A stretch of 64,000 nucleotides of DNA from an uncultured Roseobacter sp. Lineage in GTDB: Bacteria > Pseudomonadota > Alphaproteobacteria > Rhodobacterales > Rhodobacteraceae. Of the stretch, positions 42,514-62,744 are shown piece by piece. Numbering within the stretch: position 1 is the first letter of the stretch; the number at the start of each line of letters is the position of its first letter. Where the stretch lies: contig NZ_CANMNK010000005.1 in the NCBI RefSeq assembly GCF_947499265.1, positions 62,001-126,000 on the forward strand, written 5' to 3'. The position numbers and the translations under genes were made by a program. The notes beneath the pieces were generated by a model. The model was not told where the DNA came from. It saw only the letters and a list, made by a program, of their open reading frames with translations, and did no database searches.

Positions 42514-42544
42514 CCGTCTCCCTGGGAACAGGGCCCCCTGATCC

Positions 42545-43870: not shown

Positions 43871-43873
43871 CAC

Positions 43874-46291: not shown

Positions 46292-46347
46292 ACCCCTCAA
46301 ACAGACGCGTTAAGCTTAGGCCCACCATTTGGCAAAAGGACGCCGTG

Positions 46348-47582: not shown

Positions 47583-48275
47583 TCAGGTCCGAGAGGCTTC
47601 AAACGCGGCCCAGGCGGCTTCAAACTCCGCAAAGCTGATCCGTTTGTCTTTGACCGCCTCGAAAACGATCTTTTCTGAGGCAAAGAGCTGCGCGATGGCC
47701 TCGGCGAGGCGCGGCACAATGTCATCCGGGATCACAACCCCGCCGTGACGGTCCGCGTGGATCAACGCGCCGGGGGCGACGGACATACCACAAATCTCCA
47801 CCTTGATATCGAAGTCGAGCACATGCACAAACCCGTGGCTTGGCCCGATGGAGCCTGCCACCACCGGGAAGCCATCCGGCAGGTCTCCCAGATCGCGCAT
47901 CACCCCGTCCGTCAGCGCCCCGGCAAGGCCAAAGGCCTTGTGAATATTGGTGTTGACCTCACCCCAATAGGCGCCAATAGCGTTCGGGACATCCATGTCC
48001 TGCACCACAGCCACGCCAGGGCGCGGGCCCTCGGCCATGTATTTGTAATAGGCCATGCGCCGGGCCTTGATGACCTCGGGCGGTTCGGATGGCGGGGTGA
48101 CGGCCTGAATGCGCGCGGTGCGCGCATAGCCTACCATTGCCTGCCCCGGTGCCGAGCATTGCATCGTGCCGCGGGTAAAATCGTTGAAGCCGCGCTTGCC
48201 CTGCGCCACTTCGATGGCGTTGCAGACGGTGGGCGTGTCGACGCTGCGCAGCAGGTCCAGTAGGGCCGCGTCCAT
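47583..48275 (-). CDS. RraA-family aldolase-like protein
   Basis: A 230-residue RraA/HMG-aldolase fold protein. The motif ALTDGVMRDLGDL gives the metal-binding Gly-x-x-x-Arg-Asp, with later IHADRHGGVVIP. Relatives include 4-hydroxy-4-methyl-2-oxoglutarate aldolase, so cleavage of a 2-oxo-4-hydroxy acid to pyruvate is the plausible role. ATG 48275 overlaps the upstream stop as TGATG. Last gene of the operon. Confidence 0.82.
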   Translation of the reverse strand: MDAALLDLLRSVDTPTVCNAIEVAQGKRGFNDFTRGTMQCSAPGQAMVGYARTARIQAVTPPSEPPEVIKARRMAYYKYMAEGPRPGVAVVQDMDVPNAIGAYWGEVNTNIHKAFGLAGALTDGVMRDLGDLPDGFPVVAGSIGPSHGFVHVLDFDIKVEICGMSVAPGALIHADRHGGVVIPDDIVPRLAEAIAQLFASEKIVFEAVKDKRISFAEFEAAWAAFEASRT

Positions 48276-49402
48276 CACCGTCTCTCCGCCAGTGCCGCAC
48301 CATCGCGCAGTGCTTCGAGTTTGGCGAAAGCGATATCGGGATCGACCGCGCCGAAACCCGCGAATGTGCCGAAGCCGCAGTCTGACCCGGCCACAACCCG
48401 GTCCGCGCCCACAATGCCTGCAAACCGTTCAATCCGCTGGGCGACCAGTTCGGGGTGTTCCACGAAGTTGGTTGTTGTATCCACAACGCCCGGCACCAGC
48501 ACCTTGTTGTCCGGGATATCTGCCTTGCGGTCGCGAAAGACGGTCCATTCATGCGCATGGCGGGGGTTCGAGGTTTCAAAGAGCAGGTAGCTCGCCTGCG
48601 TCGACATCAGCGTGTCAAAGACCTTCTCCATCCCGATGTCGCAGACATGCGGCCCTTCGTAATTGCCCCAGCAGATGTGCACGCGCACCTTGTCCTGCGG
48701 GATGCCTTCAAGCGCATGGTTCAACGCCTCCACATGGGCGCCCGCGATCTTGAGGAACTCATCATCCGACAGATCGTTGAAAAGCATGTGCCGCGACAGC
48801 GCGAGATCCGGACAATCGAGCTGCAGATCGAGCCCGGCGGCGACAATCGTCTGATACTCCTCGCGCATCGCATCGGCCAGCGCCGCGAGATAGGCGTCGC
48901 GGGTCTTGTAGTGGTCGTTTTGCAGGAAGAGCGAGATGACCCCGGGAGAGGCCGCATTCATGAAACCCCGCGCCGCGCCATGTTGCGCCATCGCCGTCTT
49001 GAGGTTGGCAATGTCTTTCTGCAACTCGCCCTGACCCTTGGATTTAACCTCACCCGTGCACATCGGCCGCGCGTATTTCGGGGTGCCGCCATCCTCGGCC
49101 AGACGTTTGAGAAAGCTGGGGAATTTCTTCAGATCCGCAGGCGCGTTGCGCGGGCTGTCGCCTGAAAACCCGGTGTAGCGGTCCTTGACGTAGGTGGCGT
49201 AAGAGATCTTGGAGGTCTCTCCATCGCTGACAATGCCCACGCCCGCAGCCACCTGTTTGGCGACGGTATCGGAGACGGCCCGCGTCATCGCCGCGTCAAA
49301 TTCTGCCGAGTCATAGGGCGTGCCGTGCTCGCGCGCGAAAATGAAATCGACGACCTCTTGGGTGCGGGGCAGCGAGCCTGCGTGCGTGGTCAGGATGGAC
49401 AT
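48275..49402 (-). CDS. Core MetE-like cobalamin-independent methionine synthase II family protein
   Basis: A 375-residue protein corresponding to only the C-terminal catalytic domain of MetE. Start LTTHAGSLPRTQEVVDFI is typical; zinc ligands appear as His-x-Cys in VRVHICWGNYEGPH, Glu in LLFETSNPRHAHE and Cys in VVAGSDCGFGTFAG. The folate-binding N-terminal half of MetE is absent, so another methyl donor is likely. ATG 49402 with GAGGAG upstream; the frame opens at 49468. It could take a methyl group from the operon substrate. Confidence 0.85.
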   Translation of the reverse strand: MSILTTHAGSLPRTQEVVDFIFAREHGTPYDSAEFDAAMTRAVSDTVAKQVAAGVGIVSDGETSKISYATYVKDRYTGFSGDSPRNAPADLKKFPSFLKRLAEDGGTPKYARPMCTGEVKSKGQGELQKDIANLKTAMAQHGAARGFMNAASPGVISLFLQNDHYKTRDAYLAALADAMREEYQTIVAAGLDLQLDCPDLALSRHMLFNDLSDDEFLKIAGAHVEALNHALEGIPQDKVRVHICWGNYEGPHVCDIGMEKVFDTLMSTQASYLLFETSNPRHAHEWTVFRDRKADIPDNKVLVPGVVDTTTNFVEHPELVAQRIERFAGIVGADRVVAGSDCGFGTFAGFGAVDPDIAFAKLEALRDGAALAERR

Positions 49403-49412
49403 GGCAATCTCC

Positions 49413-50015
49413 TCAGATCTTGCGCGCCATGAGCACGCTGTGTTTGTTGGTCTCCGGGTCCTCGGCAAGATACCCGGTCAGGCGAAGGCCGTTTTGCTCA
49501 AGACAGGTGGCGTATTGCGCCGGAGAGAGCGAGGCGTGATAGACGGGCTGGTCACCGACGGTGCCGGTCGCCTCACCGGCATCAGGTCCCACCGTCATCA
49601 AAAGCGACGCGCCGGAGGTCAGATGCGCAGCCATACGGGCGATACAGCCGCGCTGTTCGTCGGGCGTGAGGTGGAAGAAGCTGTCCCAGGCGATGATCCC
49701 ATCGAAGGTCTCGCCCAGATCGAAGCGGCGCATGTCACCCTGCCGCCAGTCACCCTGGGGCCAGCGACTGCGTGCGATCTCCAGCATGGCATCGGCGAAA
49801 TCGACACCCGTCACCTCGAAGCCTTCAGCAAGGAACCAACGCGCGATGGGCTCTCCCGTCCCGCACCCCAGGTCAAGAACGCGACCTCCCGTCGGCAGAC
49901 AAGCGGCAAACCGCGCGAGCCACCGCGCCTCGAAGAGCGCGCGGGAGCGTTGCGCATCGTAAAGCGCGGCCTGGGTTTCATAGACATCGCGGGTGTCGCC
50001 CGGATCTGCAGTCAT
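49413..50015 (-). CDS. SAM-dependent methyltransferase
   Basis: A 200-residue class I methyltransferase. Motif I is RVLDLGCGTGEPIARW, motif II-like GVDFADAMLEIARSR and D in RRFDLGETFDGIIAWDSFFH. Start overlaps the cupin stop as ATGA. The acceptor is unknown. It is adjacent to the core-MetE gene; the two could act in opposite directions on a methyl group. Confidence 0.87.
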   Translation of the reverse strand: MTADPGDTRDVYETQAALYDAQRSRALFEARWLARFAACLPTGGRVLDLGCGTGEPIARWFLAEGFEVTGVDFADAMLEIARSRWPQGDWRQGDMRRFDLGETFDGIIAWDSFFHLTPDEQRGCIARMAAHLTSGASLLMTVGPDAGEATGTVGDQPVYHASLSPAQYATCLEQNGLRLTGYLAEDPETNKHSVLMARKI

Positions 50016-50977
50016 CCCTGCCATGTGGCACCAGCCGGGTCATCCGTGCCCACGATGTGATAGAGGGCGGCATCGCCGGTCATCGATGGCACGGCGTTGT
50101 GCATCAGGTTTTCCGGCACCGACATCGTATCGCCAGGGGCCAGCGTCGCGGTGCCGCCTTCCCATGTGACTTTCCAGTGCCCGGTGACCGGCATGAGTAC
50201 CGAAGGCCGGTCATGCTGATGCATGTCTGTGCTGGCGGAGCCACGGGTCACCAGCGCCACCTCGAACCCCGGCTTGTCGCGCAGCATTGCCTCTGCGCCA
50301 ATGACACTTGCAGGTGTCTTGTCGGCCAGCGACACCATATCCCAATAGCGCGCGACGTAGCCCGGGATCACATCGGCTGTGGTCGGTTCGGGAAAGCTTT
50401 TGAGCGCGTCTTCGGTCAGGAGCGGCATCGGCTTCACACCCTCCGGCAGCGTATGGCCCTGTTTGCTGTCATAGAGCTTGCCCTCTTCCGACAGCACCAG
50501 CCCGTGATCTGCGGCGTCCTCGATCACCTGCGGCGCCCAGATCACGCCGCCGCCCGCGTCGTCGCCGCCAAGGATCGCCATGATCATACCGTAGTCATTG
50601 CCGATGTTCTCGAATCCACGGAAGATACCGGTGGGGATGTTGAAGATATCGCCCTCTTCCAGCACCACCTCGCCCGCATCACCCCAGCGGCCCCAGAAAA
50701 ACCGCCAGCGGCCTTTCAGCACAAAGAACACCTCTGCCGTGCGGTGGCTGTGCAGCGAATTGCGGCACTTGGGCGGCTGGCCCGCCGCGCCGATGTTGAA
50801 CCCATGCGGGATCGCGATATGCACATGCTGATCGGGGCTTTCCGACACACCGCCGCCGATGATCGTGAAGTTTTCCTTCTGATCGGAGCCGGGTGTGTGG
50901 GCGTCGATGAAGGCGGTCTTGCAAGGCATCAAATCGCCGTAGCGGACGATGCGGGTTTCCATCTCTTGTGGTGTCAT
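50012..50977 (-). CDS. Double cupin-domain protein
   Basis: A 321-residue bicupin. N-terminal cupin: LHSHRTAEVFFVLKGRWRFF with metal-binding His, Glu and later His region DIFNIPTGIFRGFENIG; C-terminal cupin: DMHQHDRPSVLMPVTGHWKV and LAPGDTMSVPENLMHN. Bicupins include ring-cleaving dioxygenases and isomerases; here the reaction is not known. It lies 40 bases after the small gene. Confidence 0.82.
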   Translation of the reverse strand: MTPQEMETRIVRYGDLMPCKTAFIDAHTPGSDQKENFTIIGGGVSESPDQHVHIAIPHGFNIGAAGQPPKCRNSLHSHRTAEVFFVLKGRWRFFWGRWGDAGEVVLEEGDIFNIPTGIFRGFENIGNDYGMIMAILGGDDAGGGVIWAPQVIEDAADHGLVLSEEGKLYDSKQGHTLPEGVKPMPLLTEDALKSFPEPTTADVIPGYVARYWDMVSLADKTPASVIGAEAMLRDKPGFEVALVTRGSASTDMHQHDRPSVLMPVTGHWKVTWEGGTATLAPGDTMSVPENLMHNAVPSMTGDAALYHIVGTDDPAGATWQG

Positions 50978-51017
50978 GTCTTTGGTCCTTGTCTGAATGG
51001 GAAGTAAGTGGGTGAGG

Positions 51018-51116
51018 TCACCCGTTCCCCGGTGGACGCAGGTTCAGACGGCGCGCGCGCAGCGACGCCCGCCAGAGGTGGTATCGGCGCAGATCTTCAT
51101 GGATCGCGCGGGGCAT
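51018..51116 (-). CDS. Putative 32-residue Arg-rich small protein
   Basis: A short open frame of 32 codons from ATG 51116 to TGA at 51018. ATG overlaps the upstream stop as TGATG, and an AGGAG site (51128-51124) sits seven bases before it. The product begins MPRAIHEDLRRYHLWRASLR and has 8 Arg among 32 residues; no family recognised. Conserved coupling supports it; length alone cannot. Without conservation data it may be a leader or artefact. Confidence 0.5.
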   Translation of the reverse strand: MPRAIHEDLRRYHLWRASLRARRLNLRPPGNG

Positions 51117-52090
51117 CAGAGCTCTCCTGTGTGCAGCAGGATCTGTTTCCAGATCGTGGTCTCATCAAAGATGACATATTCACGGCGCAGCCCCCAGGGG
51201 CCGAATTCTGCGTGGCTGATCCCCAAAAGGTAAACCTCCGCACCCGTCGGCGCCCCGAACCGCCCCCAGCCGGAGTGTTTGCCCTGCAATGACCAGCGCA
51301 GCGCTGCGCGGGGTGGCATCATCGGGTCGTCGCGTCCGATCTGGTGATCGATCTGGAAGGTGGCATCCGGGAAAGACGCCCGCAGCCCCATCCAGAATTG
51401 ATCAACGTCGCCGTGGCTATGTCCGGTCTGTCCGCCCGGGTATTCCACGTGGCAAGCACGGTCATATTCCACAGGGATTGCCGCCATATCCGCACCCATG
51501 ATCCGGGTGAGGATATCGGCGTATTTGGCCCCCCATGCGTTGTCATTCCCCCGACCTTTGTAGGGACCGGGCTGATCTGTCGCCGGGCTGAGCGGTTGGG
51601 TGCAGGCCTCTGGCCCGCCTTCGCGCGCGATCAGATCGGCGGCGTAGTCTTTCGGATCCATGCCCAGTTGGCGCACGATGGCGCCCTGATCCCGGATCAG
51701 CCATTCATCATTGATCTGATTGTTGATGGCGTGGCAGTCAGCCATGATCCGGTAGGTCAGTTTCTTGCCCGTCGCCTTGCCGTAAACCCCGTCATGCGCA
51801 TGGGTCGCCGTGCTGAGCAAACGGTGCGAGGACAGCATGCCCTCCTCCGGTGTGCCCGACCAGATCACATCCTCCCCCAACAGTGTCCGATCCGGGAATT
51901 CGGCCAGCGTGGCCATGGTCGCACCAATCACATTCTGGTTGCCAATGACCACCGAGGCCGGGGAGCGGACAACGATGTCGTCGGAATAATACTGATGCAG
52001 GGTCGCAATGCCGCGATCCTCCCAGATCTCCCTGGTGATCCCGATGATGTAATCGGGGAAATCCTTGAATTTGGGATCGAAGCCTTTCAT
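51116..52090 (-). CDS. Two-domain SnoaL/NTF2-like (ester cyclase) protein, copy A
   Basis: A 324-residue protein with two NTF2/SnoaL-like halves, the first with QYYSDDIVVRSPASVVIGNQ and the second with FWMGLRASFPDATFQIDHQI. SnoaL folds act as cyclases, isomerases or hydrolases on small polar compounds. It is a more distant relative of the other three SnoaL proteins in the cluster. ATG 52090 overlaps the lacI stop (ATGA). Confidence 0.8.
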   Translation of the reverse strand: MKGFDPKFKDFPDYIIGITREIWEDRGIATLHQYYSDDIVVRSPASVVIGNQNVIGATMATLAEFPDRTLLGEDVIWSGTPEEGMLSSHRLLSTATHAHDGVYGKATGKKLTYRIMADCHAINNQINDEWLIRDQGAIVRQLGMDPKDYAADLIAREGGPEACTQPLSPATDQPGPYKGRGNDNAWGAKYADILTRIMGADMAAIPVEYDRACHVEYPGGQTGHSHGDVDQFWMGLRASFPDATFQIDHQIGRDDPMMPPRAALRWSLQGKHSGWGRFGAPTGAEVYLLGISHAEFGPWGLRREYVIFDETTIWKQILLHTGEL

Positions 52091-53103
52091 AGCGTGCAAC
52101 TTTCAGGTTTGCGGGCAGAGCCGCGGATGATCAATGGGCCGTCGAGGGTGATGCGGCGGGGTGCTTCGTCTTCTTCGGAAAGGCGTGCCAACAGGGCCTC
52201 GACCGTGGCAGCCACCATGCGGTTGGCGGGCTGGCGCACGGTTGTGAGGTCGTAGCTGGGCCAATGTGAGAGCGTCACGTCATCATAGCCCACCACCGAA
52301 ACATCCTCCGGCACGCGCAGACCAAGTTCAAACCGCAGCACATCCATCACCGCAAAGGCCATGTGATCATTGGCGACAAACACCGCGTCGGGCCGTTCTT
52401 GCGCGCCAAACATCCGCCGCGCGGCGTTTTGGGCGGTCTCGAAGTTGAAATTCCCGATGCCACGGGCAACGAGCGAGACCCCTGCCTCTTTCAAGCCCGC
52501 CATGAACCCCGCCTCGCGGTCGATCTGGGTCGAGGCATCTTCCCAGCCTGCGATATGGGCAATCCGCTTATGACCGCCCGCAATCAGGAACTCCGCCAGC
52601 TTGCGCCCGCCTGCCACATTGTCCGACGTCACGCTGGTGAGCCGCTCGTCATACTGGTGCCGGTTGAATAGCACGATGGGGATACCGAGGCCTTCGCACC
52701 GTTTCGTCAGGTCGCTCGACAGGCCCACGGAGGCCGCGATGATCGCATCCACCTGGTAGTCAAGCAGCTCATCAATCACCGTCTGCGTGGCCGCGTGATC
52801 GTTCGACGCCATGAAGACCAGAACATGATAGCCTTCCGCCTGCAGCGCCTTTGACAGGCGTTCGATGGCTTCCGGGTAGAACTGGTTTTCAAGGTAGGCG
52901 ACGACCAGACCAATGATCCGGCTGCGCCCGGTGATCAGCGAACGCGCCAACACATTGGGCCGGTAGCCCAGCTGTGCTGCCGCCTTGCGCACTTTTTCGG
53001 CCGTGCTTTTGCTGACGGAGGCCCCGGGCGTAAACACGCGGCTGACCGCGGATCGGCTGACCCCGGCCCGCTCCGCCACTTCCACTGAAGTCACCTTACC
53101 CAT
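52087..53103 (-). CDS. LacI-family transcriptional regulator
   Basis: A 338-residue LacI/GalR regulator. Helix-turn-helix: TSVEVAERAGVSRSAVSRVF with hinge LGYRPNVLARSL; the periplasmic-binding-type sensor domain follows, RIIGLVVAYLENQFYPEAIE and on to VVGYDDVTLSHWPSYDLTTV. It lies in the middle of the catabolic operon and overlaps the next gene, so it is likely autoregulated. The perfect palindrome at 61688-61707 is its best candidate operator. The effector should be the operon substrate or a derivative. Confidence 0.93.
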   Translation of the reverse strand: MGKVTSVEVAERAGVSRSAVSRVFTPGASVSKSTAEKVRKAAAQLGYRPNVLARSLITGRSRIIGLVVAYLENQFYPEAIERLSKALQAEGYHVLVFMASNDHAATQTVIDELLDYQVDAIIAASVGLSSDLTKRCEGLGIPIVLFNRHQYDERLTSVTSDNVAGGRKLAEFLIAGGHKRIAHIAGWEDASTQIDREAGFMAGLKEAGVSLVARGIGNFNFETAQNAARRMFGAQERPDAVFVANDHMAFAVMDVLRFELGLRVPEDVSVVGYDDVTLSHWPSYDLTTVRQPANRMVAATVEALLARLSEEDEAPRRITLDGPLIIRGSARKPESCTL

Positions 53104-53121
53104 GTTGCCTGATCCCGATCC

Positions 53122-53880
53122 TCAACCTGCCGTCCAGCCGCCGTCGATCATCATCGAGGTGCCGGTGATCATGGCCGAGGCATCCGACGCCAGAAAAAGC
53201 GCGGCCCCCATGATGTCTTCCACTTCACCCACGCGGGGCAGTTTGATCTTGTCCATGATCCAGGCCAACCGTTCAGGATTGTCAAACGTCACCGCAGAAA
53301 GGGGCGTGCGAATGAACGTGGGGCAGATCGTATTGATGCGGATCCCCGACTTGCCCCATTCGATGGCCATGGCTTTCACCATCCCTTCGAGCCCGTGTTT
53401 TGACGCGCAATAGACGGCGCGGTCCACCCCGCCCACATGGCCCATCTGGCTTGAGATATGGATGATCGACCCCGGCAGCCCTGCGCCCATCAGCGCCTTG
53501 GCCGCCTGTGCAGACAAAAAATAAGCGCTGCGCAGGTTCACATGCATCACCGCATCATAGTCTTCGGGCGTGGTCTGGGTGGCGGGCCCATGACGCGCCA
53601 GCCCTGCTGAGTTGATCACGATGTCAAAGGGCTCTTCAAAAGCAGCCCGTAGCGCACCTAGATCACCTTGATCCAGCGGCATGGCTTCAGCGGACCAGCC
53701 CTGCCCCGCCATCGCATTCACCGATGCCTGCAAGACATCCGCGCGCCGGGCTGCACACACCACATGGGCGCCAGCCTCGGCAAGCGCCACGGCACACCCC
53801 AACCCGATGCCCGACGACGCACCGGTGACCAGTGCCCGCTTTCCCGACAGATCAAATGACGGCGTTTCTGGCAGTTCCAT
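53122..53880 (-). CDS. Short-chain dehydrogenase/reductase
   Basis: A 252-residue SDR. Cofactor motif ALVTGASSGIGLGCAVAL, NSAGLARHG, catalytic Ser-Tyr-Lys in HISSQMGHVGGVDRAVYCAS with K following (ASKHG), and C-terminal MIDGGWTAG. Likely oxidises or reduces a hydroxyl of the substrate. ATG 53880 overlaps the upstream stop (TGATG). Confidence 0.92.
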   Translation of the reverse strand: MELPETPSFDLSGKRALVTGASSGIGLGCAVALAEAGAHVVCAARRADVLQASVNAMAGQGWSAEAMPLDQGDLGALRAAFEEPFDIVINSAGLARHGPATQTTPEDYDAVMHVNLRSAYFLSAQAAKALMGAGLPGSIIHISSQMGHVGGVDRAVYCASKHGLEGMVKAMAIEWGKSGIRINTICPTFIRTPLSAVTFDNPERLAWIMDKIKLPRVGEVEDIMGAALFLASDASAMITGTSMMIDGGWTAG

Positions 53881-54926
53881 CAAAGTGCAGCCCCTGTTGC
53901 AGAATCAAACCCAACGCGAGCCTTGTTGAATTCCCGCATGCGCGCGAAAACATCGACCCCGATCTGATCATACATATGCAGCAGGTCCACCAATACCCAA
54001 TTTTCTCGAATCAAACCGTTTTCCACCCGCCAGAAATCCAGACTGCGCATTTCGATCTTCTTGCCCGTGGGCGCAATGCCTAGCCAACCGCCCTGCGAAA
54101 TCGACTGGTACATGTCGGGCCAGCCGGTCACCGCCGCGTAATTGCGGTCGCCAAAGAAATGATACTCGATCTCATCCACATATTGGCCGCGGTCCGGCAT
54201 GCCGTTGAGGAACGGGATCTGGTGCCACTTGCGGAACCCTTCGATCCCGCGCCCGGTGCCAATGCCGGAGGGACCATACCAGCTCATGCGCGGATGCCAG
54301 AAGCGCTCCATCTCCATAACCTCCGGCCCGCCCTGCGAGGGGTGGCGCTTGAGATATTCCAACATCTCCACGATGTGCCGACAGGTGGCGGCCCCCTGCG
54401 CCGCATCATACGGCCCCGGCACCAGCCCGTCACAGGTGGCAGGCCCGGGAATATGCCACTCGCGCCCCAGGCTCGGGCTCATCGGCCAGGCATCCGCCTG
54501 CATCATGACCTCTGGCAGATCCCAAAGCGCCTGCATCTCGGTAATCTTGCCGTCCTCGAACCGGTAGAATTCATGAAACCGCAGGTGCATCAGATGCCCG
54601 GTCGATGGAATATCCAGCCACGGCATGCAGAAGGTGCCGGTGTAAAACCCGCCGCAGCCAACCCAATCAGCCCCTTCAGCTGTGGGTCCCGCCATGACGA
54701 TGTGATCACGCCGTTCCAAATCCGGCACCGCCCGCACCAGCGGCGCATAGACCGCATCCACATAAGCGTCGACGCCGGTGATCGTCTCGAACGGATAGGC
54801 CAGGCGGAACAGCACATTGGGCGCACAGATCTCATGGAGCAAGCGCCGCAGAGCCGCCAGGTCAAAATCATACAGCGCCGCGCGCAGGGGCGCGAGTGTC
54901 TCTTTATTCCGTGAATGCGTATCCAT
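53880..54926 (-). CDS. Two-domain SnoaL/NTF2-like (ester cyclase) protein, copy B
   Basis: A 348-residue protein with two SnoaL-like halves. The first has LHEICAPNVLFRLAYPFETI, the second ends in GKKIEMRSLDFWRVENGLIR then ENWVLVDLLHMYDQIGVDVF, closely matching the divergent copy at 61737 and the one-domain copy at 56326. ATG 54926 is the chosen start; the frame is open to 55019 through a hairpin repeat. Activity unknown. Confidence 0.83.
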   Translation of the reverse strand: MDTHSRNKETLAPLRAALYDFDLAALRRLLHEICAPNVLFRLAYPFETITGVDAYVDAVYAPLVRAVPDLERRDHIVMAGPTAEGADWVGCGGFYTGTFCMPWLDIPSTGHLMHLRFHEFYRFEDGKITEMQALWDLPEVMMQADAWPMSPSLGREWHIPGPATCDGLVPGPYDAAQGAATCRHIVEMLEYLKRHPSQGGPEVMEMERFWHPRMSWYGPSGIGTGRGIEGFRKWHQIPFLNGMPDRGQYVDEIEYHFFGDRNYAAVTGWPDMYQSISQGGWLGIAPTGKKIEMRSLDFWRVENGLIRENWVLVDLLHMYDQIGVDVFARMREFNKARVGFDSATGAAL

Positions 54927-54943
54927 ATCTTCTTCTGGCTTGA

Positions 54944-54984
54944 AAATATCCCGGGGGTCCGGGGGCAGCGCCCCCGGCTGCTGC
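54944..54984 (-). repeat. G+C-rich hairpin element (Rhodobacterales intergenic repeat)
   Basis: Palindrome CCGGGGGC-AGC-GCCCCCGG (54959-54977) followed on the minus strand by GGACCCCCGGGATATTTT. From memory this looks like a common roseobacter intergenic repeat. It lies between the HpsN-like gene and the SnoaL copy B, so it could act as a partial terminator or stabilise upstream RNA. Confidence 0.65.
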
Positions 54985-56313
54985 TTATTCCGCCGCTTCG
55001 CGGGCCGGGGCACCCTCACCGTAGGGCACGTTCACCCCGCCATAGCGCCGGACCCGCAGATTGCATTGCTCTGCGTGCCCCACGAACCCCTCCAGCATGC
55101 ACAAACGCGAGCCATAGGCGCCAATTTCGGCGGCGGCCTCATCGGTGGTAACCTTCTGATAGCTATGAGTTTTCAGGAATTTTCCAACCCAGAGCCCACC
55201 GGTATAGCGCCCGGCCTTCTTGGTGGGCAACGTGTGGTTGGTGCCGATCACCTTGTCGCCATTGGCCACATTGGTGCGCGGTCCGAGAAAGAGCGCACCA
55301 TAGCAGGTCATGTGCTCCAGGAACCAATCGTCACGCTCCGTCATCACCTGCACATGTTCGCTGGCGACGTCATCCGCGACTTCCAGCATCTCTTCCCAGG
55401 TGTCACAAAGGATCACCTCGCCGTATTCCTCCCAACTGACCTTGGCAGTATCCGCTGTCGGCAGAATGGTCAGGATACGGTCGATTTCGGCCAGCGTCTC
55501 CTCGGCCAGTTTGCGTGAATTCGTGAGCAGGACTGCCGGGGAGTTGTACCCGTGTTCGGCCTGCCCCAACAGGTCGGTCGCGCACATTTCCGCGTCCACG
55601 GTCTCATCCGCGATCACCATGGTTTCGGTTGGCCCCGCAAAGAGATCGATGCCGACACGGCCGAAAAGCTGACGTTTGGCTTCGGCTACAAAAGCATTGC
55701 CCGGCCCCACGATCATATGCACGGGATCAATGGTGTCTGTACCAAGCGCCATGGCCCCCACCGCCTGAATGCCGCCCATGACGTAGATCTCATGCGCCCC
55801 ACCCAGATGCATTGCCGCGATCACACCTGGATTGGGCTTGCCCTTGAAAGGTGGTGTGCAGGCAATGATCCGCGGCACCTTCGCCACGCTCGCAGTGGCC
55901 ACCGACATATGCGCCGAAGCCACCATCGGGAACTTACCGCCCGGTACGTAACAGCCTACCGACTGCACAGGGATGTTCTTGTGCCCGAGGATCACGCCCG
56001 GCAGGGTTTCGACCTCGATGTCGAGCATGGAGTCCCGTTGGGCCTGCGCAAAGTTACGTACCTGTGCTTGCGCGAATTTAATATCTTCGAGCTCACGCGG
56101 GCTGAGTTGCGCGATCAGATCGTCGATCTCCTGCTGGCTCAAACGGAAGGAGGCCGGCGAATACCTATCGAACTTCTCGCTCAGTTCCCGCACGGCCACA
56201 TCTCCGCGCATCTCGATATCGGCCAGCGTGGTTTCGACGGCGACGCGGGTTTTTGCGTCATCATCTGCGCGTTCGGCCTCAGGCTTACCACGTTTCAAAT
56301 ACTCGATTGCCAT
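54985..56313 (-). CDS. HisD-family alcohol dehydrogenase, sulfopropanediol dehydrogenase (HpsN)-like
   Basis: A 442-residue protein of the histidinol dehydrogenase family. Zinc and catalytic residues are kept: [27 protein letters not shown] and [11 protein letters not shown]. Its insertion pattern and context (no his genes) fit the HpsN branch, which oxidises a primary alcohol twice to a carboxylate with NAD. Sulfopropanediol itself is only one possibility. Preceded by a SnoaL gene after 12 bases. Probably the main oxidation step of this pathway. Confidence 0.85.
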
Positions 56314-56325
56314 CCGTTGTACTCC

Positions 56326-56856
56326 TTACTCGCCCGGGCGCGGCGGGGCTTTCTCGCCGCGGTCGAAAGCCTCCCAGCCTTCGCCCTTGAACACATCCAC
56401 GCCCAATTGGGCCAACACATGCGGGAAATCGACCATCACCCAGTTGTCGGTGATGCGCCCCTCTTCCACTTTCCAGAAATCCATGTAGCGGATCTCGACC
56501 CGTTTGCCGGTCCGCGCCACGCCCATGAAGGCGCCGGAATGCGTGGCCTCCTGTCGGCCAAAGGCGGCGGCCCATTCGCCCATGTAAAGGCGGGCTTCAT
56601 CGACGCAGACCTTGTCGGAAAAAGCCGCCTGAAACGGGCGCTGCCAATTGTCCTGAAATTCCTGCAACCCGTTTTTGGTGCCGCACCCCAGGTTGCCCAT
56701 CCAGCGGAAGTTTTGCGCAAAGAAGGCCCCGATATCGTCAATTCGGTGGTCGTTCAGGCCATCGACCATGCCTTCAATCACGGCGCGGGTGTCTTCTGTC
56801 TTGCTCATATCCGTGTCGCGGCTGAGCACCGCTTGTTCGGGACGTGATCCTTTCAT
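56326..56856 (-). CDS. Single-domain SnoaL/NTF2-like protein
   Basis: A 176-residue protein equal to the second half of the two-domain SnoaL proteins: GAFMGVARTGKRVEIRYMDF then WKVEEGRITDNWVMVDFPHV. ATG 56856 has GGAG about five bases upstream; ATG 56808 (MSKTEDTRAVIEG) is possible and the frame opens at 56880. It lies between the permease and the HpsN-like gene. Confidence 0.8.
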   Translation of the reverse strand: MKGSRPEQAVLSRDTDMSKTEDTRAVIEGMVDGLNDHRIDDIGAFFAQNFRWMGNLGCGTKNGLQEFQDNWQRPFQAAFSDKVCVDEARLYMGEWAAAFGRQEATHSGAFMGVARTGKRVEIRYMDFWKVEEGRITDNWVMVDFPHVLAQLGVDVFKGEGWEAFDRGEKAPPRPGE

Positions 56857-56905
56857 CGCGGCTCCACCTCCGGCGGGCATGTCCGAGGAATAATGGAAGT
56901 CAGGG

Positions 56906-58063
56906 TCATCCTTTGACGGCTCCTGCGGTTAATCCGCTGACAATCTGGCGCTGGAAAACCATGACCAGAAGGAAGAGCGGCGCGGTGATGGAGACGGCCG
57001 CCGCCACGGCTTCGACCTGATCGGTGGTCGTGGTTTCGCGGTTGAAGTAACCCGCGATGGCCGGAACCATCGTCTGGTTCTGCGCGTCAAGGAGCAGCGA
57101 CGTCACAAGGAAGTCATTGTAGCCCAAGAGGAAGGAGAAGAGCCCGGTGGTGATGACACCGGGCCACATCACCGGCATGATCACCCGGCGGAACGCCTGG
57201 AAATGGCTGCAGCCATCGACGCGGGCGGCTTCGTCCAACTCGGCGGGGATGTTCTGGAAAAAGGAGCGCAGCATCCAGATGGTGAACGGCTGGTTGATGG
57301 ACACCAGCACGGCGATCACCGCCCAAGGCTGGCCGTAGAGCGTGGGGGCGCCTTCGCCGAAGATCGGTCGGAGGATTTCGGAGGAGTTGATGAAGACCGG
57401 TAGGTAGCCCGCGACCAGCACCGAGTGTGGCAACGCGCGGAAAACCAGCGCCAGGATCAGCAACCAGAACGCCAGATCGGAGCCGGACCGCGCGAGCCCA
57501 TAGCCCGCGAGTGTGCCGACGGTCAGCGAGATGGTGACCACGCCTGCGGTGACCAGCATGGAGTTGAGGAAGTTGCGATAGAATTCGTTTTCGGCCCAGA
57601 CAGCCACGTAGTGCTGGGTCGTGAGGCCCAGCACCGGGTTGCCCAACGGACCAAGGAGGCTGTTGAGCACGCCCAGCACCAGCGGCAGCACCCCGAAGAA
57701 GATAAGGACAAACAGGATGGCATAGGCCAGCGCGCCGATGATCCACCCCAGCACGAGCAACCCAGGCGGGCAGTATCTCTGCACCAGCCCCGGCAAGCGC
57801 GTGAAGGCCCAGCGGATGGCAAAATAGAGCACCGCCAGCCCCAAAGCGATGTCGATGATCGACAACCCATCGCCATTTGCGCGCGTGGCGGGGCCTGTGA
57901 TGACATCCCATGCGCTGTCGGCGAAGGCGTCGACGGGCGATTTGAAGCTCATGACCGCGATCCAGAAGATCGGGAAGGCGGCAAGCAAGCACCAGAAGGC
58001 GAGGAAGGCGCCGGAGGAGAAGCGCAGTGCAAAGGACTGCTGCATGGCTTTGGGGGTAGACAT
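56906..58063 (-). CDS. ABC transporter permease, sugar type (MalG-like)
   Basis: A 385-residue inner-membrane permease with about seven or more helices and the EAA loop DEAARVDGCSHFQAFRRVIM near residue 280. It is longer than typical MalG proteins because of extra helices at about residues 75-135. Start overlaps the upstream permease stop as TGATG. Pairs with the other permease and the ATPase. Confidence 0.9.
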   Translation of the reverse strand: MSTPKAMQQSFALRFSSGAFLAFWCLLAAFPIFWIAVMSFKSPVDAFADSAWDVITGPATRANGDGLSIIDIALGLAVLYFAIRWAFTRLPGLVQRYCPPGLLVLGWIIGALAYAILFVLIFFGVLPLVLGVLNSLLGPLGNPVLGLTTQHYVAVWAENEFYRNFLNSMLVTAGVVTISLTVGTLAGYGLARSGSDLAFWLLILALVFRALPHSVLVAGYLPVFINSSEILRPIFGEGAPTLYGQPWAVIAVLVSINQPFTIWMLRSFFQNIPAELDEAARVDGCSHFQAFRRVIMPVMWPGVITTGLFSFLLGYNDFLVTSLLLDAQNQTMVPAIAGYFNRETTTTDQVEAVAAAVSITAPLFLLVMVFQRQIVSGLTAGAVKG

Positions 58064-59088
58064 CAGTGCGCGCTCCCTTTGTGGTCACGCCAGGTGCGGC
58101 GCAGCGGCAGGATCAAGAGGAACACGATCCCGATCATGGTGAGCATGGCGGAGGCGGAGGCCCGCGAGATCGCGCGGTTGCCAGCGTCATCCGGCGTCAT
58201 GAAGTCATAGGTCAGCCATTGCAGCGAGATGACGTGCGCCTGGCTGCGGAAGCCGACGATTTCCTCGAAGACACGGTAGCAATCCATCAGATGGATGAGC
58301 GCGATAAAGACGATGAGCGGCATCAGGTGCGGAACGATCACATGGCGCAGACGTTCCCAGCGGCTGGCCCCATCGATCACGGCGGATTCCAGCGTGTCCA
58401 TATTCACCGTTTGCAGCCCAGCATAGAAGATCACGAAGGCAAAGGGCGCCACGTGCCAGACCCGGTAGAAATACATCAGCAACTCGATGGTCCAGGCCTG
58501 CGCGAACATGGAGATGTTGGTGCCGGTCCACCGCTCCATCATGGCGGTCAGGATGCCATCGCCCACGAAAAGCCAGTAGATCGACAACGAGCCGATCACC
58601 GGTGTGATAATGAACGGCAGGAGGGAGATGAAGATGATTGGCCCGCGGATCGAGCGGGTGGCGTTGTTGACTGCAAGCGCAATGGCCAGCCCGACGCCAA
58701 TCACCAGCGGCAGTGTCAGCAGGGTAAAGGACAGGGTAAATCGCAGCGCTTTCCAGAAATCGATCTGCATGATGTCATTCCAGCTGCCGTTGCCCACAGC
58801 CTCCCAAAACTTATCCATCTGCAAAACGTTGCGATAGCTTTGCAAACCGACCCACCGGGTTTCTGTCATGGTTTTGCCAGCGTCATCCAGTACCGGTACC
58901 GTCTTGGTTTCCGTCACACAGGTCTGGGTGAGAAATCCGGGCGTACAGGTTTCCACTTCGACCTGTTGCAATATGGGTTGCGTGACCTGAAAGCTCTGGA
59001 TGAAGACACTCACCAGGGGTGCCGCGATAAACAGAAGCATCATAAAGACGGATGGGCCAACAAAGGCGGCAAATGTCTTGAACTTCAT
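58063..59088 (-). CDS. ABC transporter permease, sugar type (MalF-like)
   Basis: A 341-residue permease with six or more helices; the EAA loop is LESAVIDGASRWERLRHVIV. A periplasmic loop with two Cys (VEVETCTPGFLTQTCVTETK) lies after the first helix. ATG 59088 with GAGGAG upstream is the start; the frame opens at 59166. Coupled to the second permease. Confidence 0.9.
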   Translation of the reverse strand: MKFKTFAAFVGPSVFMMLLFIAAPLVSVFIQSFQVTQPILQQVEVETCTPGFLTQTCVTETKTVPVLDDAGKTMTETRWVGLQSYRNVLQMDKFWEAVGNGSWNDIMQIDFWKALRFTLSFTLLTLPLVIGVGLAIALAVNNATRSIRGPIIFISLLPFIITPVIGSLSIYWLFVGDGILTAMMERWTGTNISMFAQAWTIELLMYFYRVWHVAPFAFVIFYAGLQTVNMDTLESAVIDGASRWERLRHVIVPHLMPLIVFIALIHLMDCYRVFEEIVGFRSQAHVISLQWLTYDFMTPDDAGNRAISRASASAMLTMIGIVFLLILPLRRTWRDHKGSAH

Positions 59089-59132
59089 GGCACTCTCCTC
59101 ACGGCAGCACAGATTGCGAATGTTTCTGGTGC

Positions 59133-59169
59133 GTTTTGCAAAGCCCCTTGTCGAAGCGCTCTGCAAAAC
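59133..59169. promoter_or_regulatory. Inverted TTTTGCA half-sites upstream of the permease genes
   Basis: GTTTTGCA (59133-59140) and TGCAAAAC (59162-59169) face each other across 21 bases. Both match the arms of the palindrome at 61688-61707, so this may be a spaced secondary LacI site; an RNA hairpin is the alternative. Confidence 0.4.
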
Positions 59170-59181
59170 ACGCCGTTGGTC

Positions 59182-59211
59182 GGGGCTGGCCGCACGAACG
59201 CCGCCAGCCCC
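59182..59211 (-). terminator. Stable hairpin after the binding-protein gene
   Basis: Nine-base stem GGGGCTGGC with GCCAGCCCC and a 12-base loop, seven bases after the stop. No T-run follows on the minus strand. It probably protects the binding-protein mRNA or attenuates read-through, giving more binding protein than permease. Confidence 0.6.
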
Positions 59212-59217
59212 AATAGA

Positions 59218-60438
59218 TTACTTGAGCACACCGGCCTCTTTGGCAGAGGTGGTATAGGCCTCTTCGATTGCCGTCAGCGTGGCTGCGGCGTCGCGATCAC
59301 CGGTCAGGAAAGCAGGAAGCTCATTGCCCAGCGCAGTGTGCAGCAGGCCCATCTGTGTCGTGGAAGGATAGGCGGGTGGTGCTGGTGCGGCGGTTGCGGT
59401 GGCAATCGCGCCCTCCGCGATCTCCGTTGGTACGTAGCCGTTCACAAGCCAAATCGCCGCATCATTGGCTCCCTGTACGGTCTCCGCGTCCAGACCTTCC
59501 ATCGCCAGCCGGAACGCCGCATCCGCCTCTTCATCAGAGATGTTCTTGGCAATCACGATGCCATCCCACCACAGGGTCGTGGCTGGTGCGCCATCGGCGA
59601 CCGCTTTGGGGGCAGCCGCCATCGCGACCTTGCCCACCACCTGGCTTTCCGCCGGATCGTTCATCGCGCCTGCGCGGCTCGACCAGAGGTTCGCCATCGC
59701 GATTTTGCCCTGTTGAAACTGCTGCTGCACGTAGGTGGAGTCGCTGACCAACACCTCTGGATCCGTGAAGGCCAGCGCCTTTTTCATCGTTTCCAATGCG
59801 GCCACACCAGCATCGGAATTCACTGCGGTGGTGTTATCATCGTTGAAGAACTGGCCGCCGTGTCCGGGGTACATGTTCACGAATTCCTGCGCCAGGTTCC
59901 AGCCGGATTTCATCGTGGCCCCCAAGGGGTAATCGACGACACCGGCTTCCTTGATCTTCTCGGCGGCGGCGTAAACTTCATCCCAAGTTGTGGGCGTTTC
60001 AATGCCCAGATCCGCCAGAATGTCCGATCGGTACATCAGGTGCTGGGTGTTCACCATCATCGCCACGGCCATGATCTTGCCGTTGATGCGGATCAGCTGG
60101 TTCGGGGTCAGGTTCTGACCATATTTGGCGACCAGATCGTCCAGGGGGCGAATTGTGCCCGCGTTGATCAGCGGCGTGATCGTCCCGTTGGAGACACCCC
60201 CGATCTGGTAGAGCGATGGATTGGCCTCAAAGGCAGCAGGCTGCTTTGTGCGGAATTCCTGATCCAGCTCGGCCTGAAAGTTTCCGCATTCCGCCATGGC
60301 GTCGGTGACGGCTTTCCAGGCTTCAAAACCAGCCGTCAGCGATTTGATCGGCGTTGTATTCTCGTAGGAACAGGCCGCAAAAGCAGCACTGCCCATCAAC
60401 GAGATCGCCCCCGCCAGTGCAATTTTCTTCAAAAACAT
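59218..60438 (-). CDS. ABC transporter substrate-binding protein, sugar type
   Basis: A 406-residue periplasmic protein of the MalE/UgpB type (cluster B). Signal peptide KKIALAGAISLMGSAAFA cuts at AFA-AC. The mature part has QIGGVSNGTITPLINAGTIR, MVNTQHLMYRSDILADLGIE and TPTTWDEVYAAAEKIKEAGV, typical of CUT1 binding proteins. ATG 60438 is used; the frame is open to 60480. Ligand is unknown but should be a sugar, polyol or sugar derivative. Confidence 0.9.
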   Translation of the reverse strand: MFLKKIALAGAISLMGSAAFAACSYENTTPIKSLTAGFEAWKAVTDAMAECGNFQAELDQEFRTKQPAAFEANPSLYQIGGVSNGTITPLINAGTIRPLDDLVAKYGQNLTPNQLIRINGKIMAVAMMVNTQHLMYRSDILADLGIETPTTWDEVYAAAEKIKEAGVVDYPLGATMKSGWNLAQEFVNMYPGHGGQFFNDDNTTAVNSDAGVAALETMKKALAFTDPEVLVSDSTYVQQQFQQGKIAMANLWSSRAGAMNDPAESQVVGKVAMAAAPKAVADGAPATTLWWDGIVIAKNISDEEADAAFRLAMEGLDAETVQGANDAAIWLVNGYVPTEIAEGAIATATAAPAPPAYPSTTQMGLLHTALGNELPAFLTGDRDAAATLTAIEEAYTTSAKEAGVLK

Positions 60439-60465
60439 ATGCAAACTCCCTGTTGCAGTTGGCTT

Positions 60466-60490
60466 GGGTGCATCTTGCAAGGCTGCACCC
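60466..60490 (-). other. Inverted repeat in the ATPase to binding-protein gap
   Basis: GGGTGCA (60466-60472) pairs with TGCACCC (60484-60490) over an 11-base loop in the 81-base gap. It could form an RNA hairpin that influences relative expression of the binding protein. Confidence 0.45.
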
Positions 60491-60519
60491 TTTGGTTGGC
60501 CCCTTCAGGGGCGTATTTA

Positions 60520-61608
60520 TCAAGCAACGCCGATGCGCGTCCCGCTGTCTTTGTTGCCCGCGTCGATGCGTGCCCCGGTGTCCTTGTCAAACAAATGGCA
60601 AATCGCTGTCGGGACATTGAACGAAACCATGTCCCCGATCTCCGCCCGGAATTCCTTGTGTGCCTTGACCGACACCAGCTGCCCCCCAGCCCGCACGGTC
60701 AGCATCGTGGCATCGCCCAGCAGTTCGATGGTGTAGATGGGCGCGGTGATCTGGCCACTGGCCCCTTCGGCCAGCGTGGCGTCTTCGGCGCGAAAGCCCA
60801 GCGTGACAGGGCCATCCGACCCGTTCAGGCCCGAAATCGACACGTTGTCACCTGCAAAGGTGCCACCGCGCATTTCGCCCTCCATCAGGTTCATTGCGGG
60901 GCTGCCGATGAAGCTGGCGACGAACGTATTGGCTGGATGGTCGTAGATGTCGGTCGGTGTGCCCACCTGCTGGACCTTGCCCTGCTTCATCACCACAACA
61001 CGGTCGGCGAGCGTCATCGCCTCGATCTGGTCATGCGTCACGTAGACTGTCGTCACTTTCAGCTCGTGACTGAGGTTCTTGATCTGCGCGCGGGTCGAGA
61101 CGCGCAGTTTCGCATCAAGGTTCGACAGCGGCTCATCCATCAGGAAGACGTTGGGCTCACGCACGATGGCGCGGGCCAGCGCCACGCGTTGGCGTTGCCC
61201 CCCCGAAAGTTCTGCCGGTTTGCGGTGCAGGAAATCGTCCAATTCGACCATCGCGGAGGCCCGACGGACACGCGTATCATGCTCCTCCTCGGGCACCTTA
61301 CGCACCTTCAGCGGAAAGCGGATGTTCTCGTAGACATTCATATTGGGATAAAGGCCGTAGGACTGGAACACCATCGCCACATCGCGATCTTTGGGGTCCA
61401 GATCATTCACCACCTTACCATCGATGATGATCTCGCCATCGGTTGCATCCTCAAGACCTGCGATCATGCGCATCGTGGTCGTCTTGCCGCACCCTGATGG
61501 GCCGAGCAGCACGAGGAATTCCTGGTCCGCAATCGTCAGGTCAAAGTTATCGACGCCAACGAAGCTGCCCCATCTTTTGTTGATGTTCCGCAGTTGAATT
61601 TCAGCCAT
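60520..61608 (-). CDS. ABC transporter ATP-binding protein (UgpC/MalK type)
   Basis: A 362-residue ATPase of CUT1 importers. Walker A LLGPSGCGKTTTMRMIAGLE, signature LSGGQRQRVALARAI, Walker B NVFLMDEPLSNLDAKLR and switch His in TVYVTHDQIEAM are in order. The C-terminal OB (TOBE) domain ends in GNKDSGTRIGVA. It is the first gene of the minus-strand catabolic operon. Divergent from the SnoaL gene at 61737. Confidence 0.95.
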   Translation of the reverse strand: MAEIQLRNINKRWGSFVGVDNFDLTIADQEFLVLLGPSGCGKTTTMRMIAGLEDATDGEIIIDGKVVNDLDPKDRDVAMVFQSYGLYPNMNVYENIRFPLKVRKVPEEEHDTRVRRASAMVELDDFLHRKPAELSGGQRQRVALARAIVREPNVFLMDEPLSNLDAKLRVSTRAQIKNLSHELKVTTVYVTHDQIEAMTLADRVVVMKQGKVQQVGTPTDIYDHPANTFVASFIGSPAMNLMEGEMRGGTFAGDNVSISGLNGSDGPVTLGFRAEDATLAEGASGQITAPIYTIELLGDATMLTVRAGGQLVSVKAHKEFRAEIGDMVSFNVPTAICHLFDKDTGARIDAGNKDSGTRIGVA

Positions 61609-61687
61609 GATGTCCCCGCTGTCGCAGACCTGCCTTTTGCAGGCTTTTATCGACGCTAGACATTCCCGCCCTCACTTGGCAAGAGTT

Positions 61688-61707
61688 TTTTGCACACGTG
61701 TGCAAAA
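61688..61707. promoter_or_regulatory. Perfect 20-bp palindrome, probable LacI-family operator
   Basis: TTTTGCACACGTGTGCAAAA, perfectly symmetric around CpG, as is usual for LacI/GalR operators. It lies in the 128-base divergent region, 30 bases before the SnoaL ATG at 61737 and 80 bases before the ATPase start. A possible minus-strand -35 (TTGCCA, 61682-61677) adjoins it. Recognition by the LacI protein at 52087-53103 is inferred. Confidence 0.85.
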
Positions 61708-61736
61708 CCGATTGAGCGCCGCTCAGGGATTCAGCA

Positions 61737-62744
61737 ATGCAAAACACCACACCCGAAATTCGCGATTTTTTAAACACCGTGATCCACGCGGATGATGCAG
61801 CCCTGCAACCGCTTTGTGCCCGGTTTCTGCATCCCGGCTGCGTCTTCGAAATCTCATATCCCTTTGAGCCCCTGCAAGGTCCGAAGGCCATAATCGATGG
61901 TTTCCTGAGACCTTTGCGCGCGGCGTTGCACCATACCCGGCGGCGTGACGAAATTTTCATCAGCGGTGCCAATCGACGCGACGAAGGCGGCGATTGGATC
62001 GCCTGCGTCACGCATTATCTGGGCACCTTCAGCGGCGCATTTATGGGCATCATACCATCGCAAAAACTGGCGTTTTTACGGTCAGGCGAATTCTACAGAA
62101 TCGAAAACGGCCAGATAACCCAGGCGCGAATCATCCTCGATTTACCAGATCTCATGCGTCAGGCGGGCCGTGATCCTTTTCGCGGCCAGCTTGGCCTGGA
62201 GACCCTGTTTCCGGGGCCGGCAACCCATGATGGGGTCTTGCCCGAAGGGTCGAATGGCGCCGCGAGCCTTGATCTGGTGGAGGCCATGCTGGGCGATCTG
62301 CACCACTATGACCCACACACTGGTGGCTCCGAAGGCCAGACCGGTCAGGATGGGTATTGGGCAGAGGACATGCTGTGGTACGGGCCCGGCGGCATCGGGT
62401 CGAATTACCGCTGGGAGGGGTTCGTCAGGGATCACCGCGCGCCGTTCCTGACGGCGTTCCCCGACCGAAAGGGCGGCAATCACTACTGCCGGATTGGCCA
62501 CGGCAACTATGCTGCGGTGTCGGGCTGGCCATCAATGACAATGACCCATCGCGGCGACTATCTGGGTATCGCGCCGACCGCTCGCGCCCTGACGCTGCGC
62601 GTCATGGATTTCTACCGATGTGCCGACGGTAAGATCGCGGAAAACTGGGTGCTGCTCGACTACATGCACCTGATGCACCAAATGGGCGTAGATCTGATTG
62701 CCCGCTCGAATGAGCTGGCATCCCCTGCGCAAGCGCCCCCCTAA
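61737..62744 (+). CDS. Two-domain SnoaL/NTF2-like (ester cyclase) protein, copy C
   Basis: A 335-residue protein with two SnoaL-like halves: HPGCVFEISYPFEPLQGPKA in the first, and GDYLGIAPTARALTLRVMDF then IAENWVLLDYMHLMHQMGVD in the second. It is closest to copy B by eye. It is the only cluster gene on the plus strand and shares the palindromic operator with the operon. Convergent with the acyl-CoA dehydrogenase gene, 10 bases apart. Confidence 0.83.
   Translation: MQNTTPEIRDFLNTVIHADDAALQPLCARFLHPGCVFEISYPFEPLQGPKAIIDGFLRPLRAALHHTRRRDEIFISGANRRDEGGDWIACVTHYLGTFSGAFMGIIPSQKLAFLRSGEFYRIENGQITQARIILDLPDLMRQAGRDPFRGQLGLETLFPGPATHDGVLPEGSNGAASLDLVEAMLGDLHHYDPHTGGSEGQTGQDGYWAEDMLWYGPGGIGSNYRWEGFVRDHRAPFLTAFPDRKGGNHYCRIGHGNYAAVSGWPSMTMTHRGDYLGIAPTARALTLRVMDFYRCADGKIAENWVLLDYMHLMHQMGVDLIARSNELASPAQAPP

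Follow-up and report, generated by a model that had tools for sequence, protein, structure and literature searches.

Several described systems contain relatives of the proteins considered here. HpsN, the 3-dehydrogenase of R-2,3-dihydroxypropane-1-sulfonate (R-DHPS) in the HpsNOP pathway, carries the motif G-R-Y-A/S-H, whose final histidine recognises the sulfonate (PMC11382572). For the core methionine synthases (MesA-D), four zinc ligands and three homocysteine-binding residues are listed in PMC7857596, and two proteins of Roseobacter litoralis are called histidinol dehydrogenase (HisD) in PMC4103551. In this work we analyse a gene cluster of an uncultured Roseobacter sp. which brings together relatives of HpsN, HisD and the core methionine synthases. 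It lies in a stretch of 64,000 nucleotides (G000:C5:62001-126000, the window throughout this text) from a genome of 5.2 Mb in 28 contigs.

Based on Pfam matches and the list of open reading frames (ORFs), the cluster is formed by 14 minus-strand genes and one divergent plus-strand gene (61737-62744). It encodes a CUT1-type importer (a UgpC-like ATPase, a solute-binding protein of family SBP_bac_1 and two BPD_transp_1 permeases), four SnoaL proteins (one single and three tandem, with seven SnoaL domains altogether) and members of the HisD, SDR, LacI, bicupin, class I methyltransferase, MetE catalytic domain and RraA families. We propose, with confidence at about the midpoint, that these genes form a LacI-repressed regulon which takes up a methylated polyhydroxy acid or polyol bearing a hydroxymethyl group and cleaves it oxidatively. 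The gene set, its co-occurrence, the common operator and the conserved residues were computed; from these we infer the substrate class, each reaction, their order and the methylation. Every protein family is known, and the whole would still be a LacI-controlled catabolic regulon; the combination and the regulon were not found described in the open-access literature. In particular, searches of the open-access PMC literature for the gene set, for SnoaL with HpsN, for mycosporine degradation and for core MetE returned no described pathway, in agreement with an earlier note on this DNA, which knew of no characterised pathway with this combination.

Co-occurrence and conserved neighbourhood

In a sample of 295 Rhodobacteraceae genomes (the present one included), the HisD-like protein is matched at E <= 1e-160 in 143, and the tandem SnoaL-like protein Sno2 at E <= 0.001 in 126. 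Taking as Sno2 orthologues the listed matches with E <= 3e-101 (weaker ones, including a partial match in G119, were left out), a strong tandem-SnoaL match is present in 98 of the 295 genomes, and 94 of these carry the HisD-like gene too (Fisher p = 9e-35). The two genes are at most 2.5 kb apart in 79 of the 98 and at most 15 kb apart in one more; in 14 they lie further apart or on different contigs, and the remaining four have no HisD-like gene. Additionally, plasmid neighbourhoods in Ruegeria, Paracoccus and Octadecabacter show much the same gene order, and a GTDB scan with the cupin alignment confirmed at least 580 relatives among at least 594 stretches. Among viral contigs, 23 stretches matched the pattern used for HisD-like copies, none of which encoded a relative.

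Neighbourhood counts were taken from the best 80 of these at least 580 cupin relatives, 49 of which are full-length (at least 20.9 kb). These loci were picked for their similarity to window proteins and are not a random sample, they reach 10 kb to each side of the cupin gene (so that distal genes are undercounted), and the labels Sno1 to Sno4 stand for best matches among paralogues. Within this scope, the full-length loci contain LacI (46 of 49), Sno3 (45), the HisD-like gene (43), SDR (40), Sno2 (36), MetE (36), permease A (35), RraA (30), Sno1 (29), the ATPase (28), a PcaD-like hydrolase (22), the methyltransferase (11) and Sno4 (6). The earlier note had made its reading of import and breakdown as one unit depend on the parts travelling together; this they do, and the reading is backed by the co-occurrence, by the neighbourhoods and by the common operator described below.

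These observations bear on another explanation, namely that the cluster holds a second histidinol dehydrogenase surrounded by unrelated genes gathered by chance. The HisD-like protein does pass the curated NCBIfam hisD model TIGR00069 (426.4 bits, cut-off 243.8), and some parts are found without the others; a different gene of the genome, however, is closer to HisD (560 bits against 442 for the HisD-like protein with PF00815), which, together with the co-occurrence, the conserved order and an operator common to different contigs, makes a chance assembly very improbable.

The operator and its repressor

The palindrome TTTTGCACACGTGTGCAAAA sits between the ATPase gene and the divergent SnoaL gene. 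With up to three mismatches allowed, the window has no other match to it (0 in 100 shuffles); genome-wide, its 16-bp core occurs once when up to two mismatches are allowed. In 134 related loci (L034-L167), the near-palindromic consensus TTGCATACGTATGCAA, with up to three mismatches allowed, gives 119 matches in 73 loci, whereas 200 control palindromes with shuffled half-sites give a mean of 1.9 matches (the highest 41, the next 25). Practically all matches (118 of 119) fall outside the called module genes, and 111 lie at most 350 bp from an estimated module gene start, mostly in the intergenic region of the ATPase, binding-protein and Sno4 genes or at the HisD-like gene. The promoter scan also found two terminator-like stems near the operator. 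A conserved palindromic operator stands before the genes, together with a repressor gene, as is characteristic of a LacI-controlled regulon.

The recognition helix of the LacI protein reads AGVSRSAVSRVFT in the window, and its commonest form in the other loci is AGVSQSAVSRVFT. The sixth base of the half-site is C in 13 of 14 half-sites from loci with the Arg helix, against 12 of 220 from loci with the Gln helix (seven Arg loci, the window included, and 61 Gln loci, all of them having an operator and a single readable helix type). In a tree of 114 LacI sequences the Arg requires at least three changes; since the operator is visible in just two Arg lineages (L132 and L134 end short of the promoter), the seven Arg loci effectively amount to two observations. 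The LacI protein of the cluster thus apparently binds the palindrome, as predicted from sequence.

A genome-wide scan with at most one mismatch, in 17 genomes picked for the HisD-like gene (three from the family, five from the class and nine from the phylum), yielded 24 operator sites, against 3 for the reversed pattern. Fifteen sites lie within the HisD-like locus and two in G542. In G235 and G596 the operator is also present at a SnoaL-cupin-ABC operon (two sites) located on a different contig from the HisD-like operon, and in G487 (L191) it precedes an amidase gene on another contig (one site). That HisD-like and SnoaL operons on separate contigs have an operator in common is the strongest indication that both belong to one pathway.

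The enzymes and the candidate substrate

The zinc-ligand and Glu-His positions of the HisD-like protein are invariant in an alignment of 19 sequences, among them the HisD-type and HpsN-type proteins of this genome. The earlier note had called the protein HpsN-like, which holds at the level of the superfamily and fails at the defining residue, given that the sulfonate-recognising histidine of HpsN corresponds to Met130 (motif GKFPM). Module-type sequences read GK(F/Y)P(M/L) in 111 of 112 cases, the last one being unreadable. Three subtypes of the superfamily coexist in the genome, the other two being an HpsN-type protein with the motif GRYSH (G000:C4:596311-597531, L002) and a HisD-type protein (G000:C5:412526-413743, L001), and we treat the HisD-like protein as a third subfamily, predicted to be neither HpsN nor the genome's HisD type. 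For this reason the sulfonate substrate that the note had also entertained finds no support. A pathway for DHPS or another sulfonate, with the HisD-like protein acting as HpsN to make sulfolactate, would agree with the best solved relatives being HpsN-type (388 bits) and with a nearly invariant lysine, which also contacts the sulfonate in HpsN (alignment of 19). It was rejected on the motif (GKFPM against GRY(A/S)H) and is highly unlikely, considering also the separate GRYSH protein and that no sulfolyase annotation was found in the plasmid neighbourhoods shown (one further region being unannotated).

A second HisD paralogue, with GRYPI or GRYPL, is present in eight loci, six of them with an amidase gene (L110, L129, L153, L154, L060 and L068). 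The amidase association, including the operator in G487, hints at an amide-containing form of the substrate.

No protein of the genome other than the MetE-like one matches PF01717, and another S-methyltransferase family is represented by four genes. Among 26 aligned members, each one that covers the site retains the four zinc ligands and the three residues for homocysteine, which makes demethylation plausible and lends sequence-based backing to the methyl handling proposed earlier, though MetE is absent from some complete-looking loci. In Phaeobacter inhibens, the lag-phase shortening was not abolished when a core-MetE-like gene was deleted (PMC12366255).

The absence of MetE from those loci is one reason to weigh a pathway for a non-methylated sugar acid with aldarate-type cleavage, in which MetE and the methyltransferase would serve methionine or methyl metabolism and not the substrate. 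It would also suit the TRAP and TctC carriers of some loci, the HpcH aldolase of L082, which resembles HpaI and GarL (135 and 132 bits, below the model cut-offs), and an amidohydrolase beside the Ruegeria cluster, which resembles L-fuconolactonase (112 bits, below the cut-off). Against it speaks MetE itself, which belongs to the operon in 36 of the 49 full-length loci, retains every zinc and homocysteine residue and lies beside SnoaL genes in an archaeon too; we regard this alternative as rather unlikely, if the most serious of those considered.

In certain other families of Proteobacteria, the HisD-like gene is grouped with SDR, cupin, SnoaL and LacI genes and an HpcH/HpaI aldolase, the carriers being of the MFS (L060), TRAP (L066) or sodium symporter type (L067 and L070), and the protein comparison revealed no RraA in these loci. 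Another set (L063) unites HisD-like, SDR and LacI genes with a TctC receptor and a lyase of the phosphoenolpyruvate (PEP)-mutase type. Replacement of RraA by lyases of the HpcH/HpaI or PEP-mutase type fits carbon-carbon cleavage as the last step, and the TRAP and TctC carriers suggest that the substrate is acidic. Residues Arg128 and Asp129 of RraA, which we take to be the Arg-Asp pair for pyruvate and metal, are kept in 20 of 20 sequences. One locus with HisD-like and SDR genes and no SnoaL has RraA as well, and the HisD-like gene occurs without an adjoining SDR on Rhizobium and Ancylobacter plasmids. Altogether, the system looks modular, with an upper part (SnoaL, MetE, cupin and hydrolase) and a lower part (HisD-like, SDR and carbon-carbon lyase). 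On two plasmids (L085 and L086), nadA, L-aspartate oxidase and nadC genes are located downstream of the HisD-like and SDR genes.

Regarding the upper part, an aspartate near the C-terminal end of the domain, presumably the catalytic residue, is present by motif in all seven SnoaL domains, and that of the Sno2 C-terminal domain aligns with solved SnoaL relatives. The Sno2 structure model (predicted local distance difference test, pLDDT, of 91) has template modelling (TM) scores of 0.3-0.4 over the whole chain with tandem polyether epoxide hydrolases, and of 0.6-0.86, by target length, with single SnoaL-like cyclases. The model of the bicupin (pLDDT 84) is similar to oxalate decarboxylase and quercetinase; over the whole chain the TM-scores are only ~0.5. 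The canonical metal site of quercetinase-type cupin dioxygenases is His-His-Glu-His; in the first domain of the bicupin, His76, His78 and Glu82 are invariant and the fourth position is an invariant Arg120 (24 sequences), and on this basis we do not name it a dioxygenase.

A more specific substrate can be imagined from chemistry. The ring of mycosporine-like amino acids and of gadusol has a tertiary carbinol bearing CH2OH and an O-methyl group, and 4-carboxy-4-hydroxy-2-oxoadipate is an RraA-family aldolase substrate, cleaved to pyruvate and oxaloacetate. If the regulon degraded mycosporine-like amino acids or gadusol-type sunscreens, the carbinol beside CH2OH would be the neighbour that a HisD-type enzyme needs, the O-methyl group would suit core MetE, and oxidation of CH2OH to COOH, demethylation and one cleavage of the enolone ring would give this oxoadipate; additionally, sarcosine oxidase and GcvT-like genes occur near SnoaL genes in two organisms. 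Nevertheless, HisD-like and SDR genes are also found without SnoaL, MetE or cupin, the recurrent amidase is not needed by such chemistry, and searches of the open-access literature on these compounds and their microbial degradation listed no gene cluster, so that we consider this substrate improbable.

In the regulon that we favour, for a methylated, hydroxymethyl-bearing compound, LacI bound to the palindrome at 61688-61707 would, according to the computed operator, keep both the 14-gene operon and the divergent SnoaL gene shut as long as no inducer is present. The CUT1 importer would then bring in a small polyhydroxy compound that carries a methyl group and probably belongs to the sugar acids, polyols or cyclitols. 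The SnoaL-like enzymes may isomerise, hydrate or open this compound, and core MetE, consistently with its conserved residues, would pass the methyl group to homocysteine. Judging from families and residues, the third-type HisD enzyme would oxidise a terminal HO-C-CH2OH to the carboxylate with NAD+, the SDR would convert a secondary hydroxyl into a ketone, the bicupin (with a PcaD-like hydrolase as well in other genomes) may complete a rearrangement or ring opening, and RraA would split the resulting hydroxy-oxo acid into pyruvate or oxaloacetate and a smaller product.

Several observations weigh against this proposal. As to the gene set, HisD-like and SDR genes occur without SnoaL in the 21 kb shown, beside a TAXI-TRAP carrier and a citrate-lyase-type aldolase; SnoaL genes stand apart from HisD in Vibrio pelagius, beside sarcosine oxidase genes, and in the archaeon Halobellus limi, where the neighbours are a MetE-like and an aminomethyltransferase-family gene; MetE and RraA are found in only 36 and 30 of the 49 full-length loci (distal genes being undercounted); and the bicupin lacks the usual fourth metal ligand. 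As to the operator, 61 of the 134 loci have no match, part of them ending before the ATPase promoter, and those with stretches of 21-25 kb include L036, L037 and L080-L086. One control palindrome, CCGATTATATAATCGG, obtained 41 near-matches in 41 loci (L034-L167) and is possibly another conserved sequence. Six of the 17 scanned genomes have zero sites despite their HisD-like gene, four of the 24 sites belong to a starch regulon with another LacI in G301 (L190, G301:C22:1-20000), so that the motif alone is no proof, and a promoter scan near the operator found no sigma-70-like site.

Gene layout and comparison with known systems

The features are collected in the table. The importer at the head of the cluster, RraA at its end, the four SnoaL proteins, core MetE and the methyltransferase are all confirmed by Pfam as first described; the overlapping or closely spaced arrangement also stands, and the count of 15 minus-strand genes plus a divergent one becomes 14 plus one. 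With the longest ORFs, minus-strand gaps range from -56 to +51 bp, except for 138 bp before the cupin gene, and the divergent starts of the ATPase and Sno4 genes are 128 bp apart; later start codons, if true, would reduce some overlaps. An extra ORF without a Pfam match (61601-62011) overlaps the divergent gene.

Features of the cluster and its possible accessories (window positions)
Feature	Position	Strand	Basis or remark
Predicted LacI operator, perfect 20-bp palindrome TTTTGCACACGTGTGCAAAA	61688..61707		Kept in related loci
ABC importer ATPase, UgpC type	60520..61608	-	Pfam; UgpC model 452.8 bits, cut-off 432
Solute-binding protein, SBP_bac_1	59218..60480	-	Pfam
ABC importer permease A	58063..59166	-	Pfam
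ABC importer permease B	56906..58063	-	Pfam
Single-domain SnoaL-like protein Sno1	56326..56880	-	Pfam
HisD-family dehydrogenase, treated as third subfamily, motif GKFPM	54985..56313	-	Pfam, alignment
Tandem SnoaL-like Sno2	53880..55019	-	Start more likely ~54926; Pfam, structure model
SDR oxidoreductase	53122..53883	-	Pfam
LacI-family repressor, recognition helix AGVSRSAVSRVFT	52087..53103	-	Pfam
Tandem SnoaL-like Sno3	51116..52099	-	Pfam
Bicupin; H76, H78, E82 invariant, Arg120 at fourth-ligand position	50012..50977	-	Pfam, alignment, structure model
Class I S-adenosylmethionine methyltransferase, accessory (11/49 full-length loci)	49413..50024	-	Pfam
Core MetE	48275..49468	-	Start probably later than 49468; Pfam, site residues
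RraA-family aldolase	47583..48278	-	Pfam, site residues
Divergent tandem SnoaL-like Sno4	61737..62744	+	Pfam
Enolase-superfamily protein, galactonate-dehydratase-like, possible accessory	46345..47580	+	Adjoins module in 9/49 full-length loci
Zinc alcohol dehydrogenase, possible accessory	45200..46291	+	8/49 full-length loci

The enolase-superfamily gene that the earlier note had drawn on in its reasoning is present, outside the cluster and on the plus strand. In the full-length loci it never accompanies the PcaD-like hydrolase (0 of 9 against 22 of 40, p = 0.0025); a replacement of one by the other is not claimed, the HisD-like proteins of the nine loci being 88-95% identical to the window's. 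Further to the left (39220-45088, plus strand), the window encodes a haloacid dehalogenase (HAD) type II dehalogenase, two alpha/beta hydrolases (the second being PcaD), a Tet-like MFS carrier, an enzyme resembling threonine/hydroxyaspartate ammonia-lyase and a PcaB-type protein. The plus-strand genes at 41725-43870 are PcaD-type (above the cut-off) and PcaB-type (below the main model's cut-off), and the genes on this side probably form a separate protocatechuate set.

With the HisD subfamily in 143 and a strong SnoaL match in 98 of 295 Rhodobacteraceae genomes, these bacteria probably consume a common compound, and the set recurs in many ocean and soil bacteria. The operator, the repressor and the binding protein are concrete handles for identifying this compound. 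The regulon offers a third HisD-fold subfamily and a likely catabolic role for core MetE, and it illustrates how a catabolic pathway can go unnoticed behind automatic names such as "histidinol dehydrogenase" and "methionine synthase".

Compared with the systems introduced at the outset, the cluster enzyme shares with HpsN the HisD fold, the zinc ligands, the Glu-His pair and a neighbouring SDR, and differs from it in the sulfonate-recognising histidine, in its other neighbours and in its carrier. Likewise, it passes the curated model of histidinol dehydrogenase, whereas it shares 36% identity with the HisD-type protein of the same genome, stands among catabolic genes and has the motif GKFPM. 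The MetE-like protein conserves the zinc and homocysteine residues of the core methionine synthases (MesA-D), but it reaches the cut-off of none of the NCBIfam methionine synthase models that it matches and is set in a catabolic operon. RraA has the fold and Arg-Asp pair of the aldolases for 4-hydroxy-4-methyl-2-oxoglutarate (HMG) and 4-carboxy-4-hydroxy-2-oxoadipate (CHA), LigK/PcmE, with only 29.1 bits on their model (cut-off 304.5). Finally, the locus resembles LacI-controlled CUT1 operons for sugars and polyols in its importer, local LacI, palindromic operator, oxidoreductases and aldolase, and is set apart from them by four SnoaL-like proteins, HisD-type oxidation, core MetE and exchangeable carriers and lyases.

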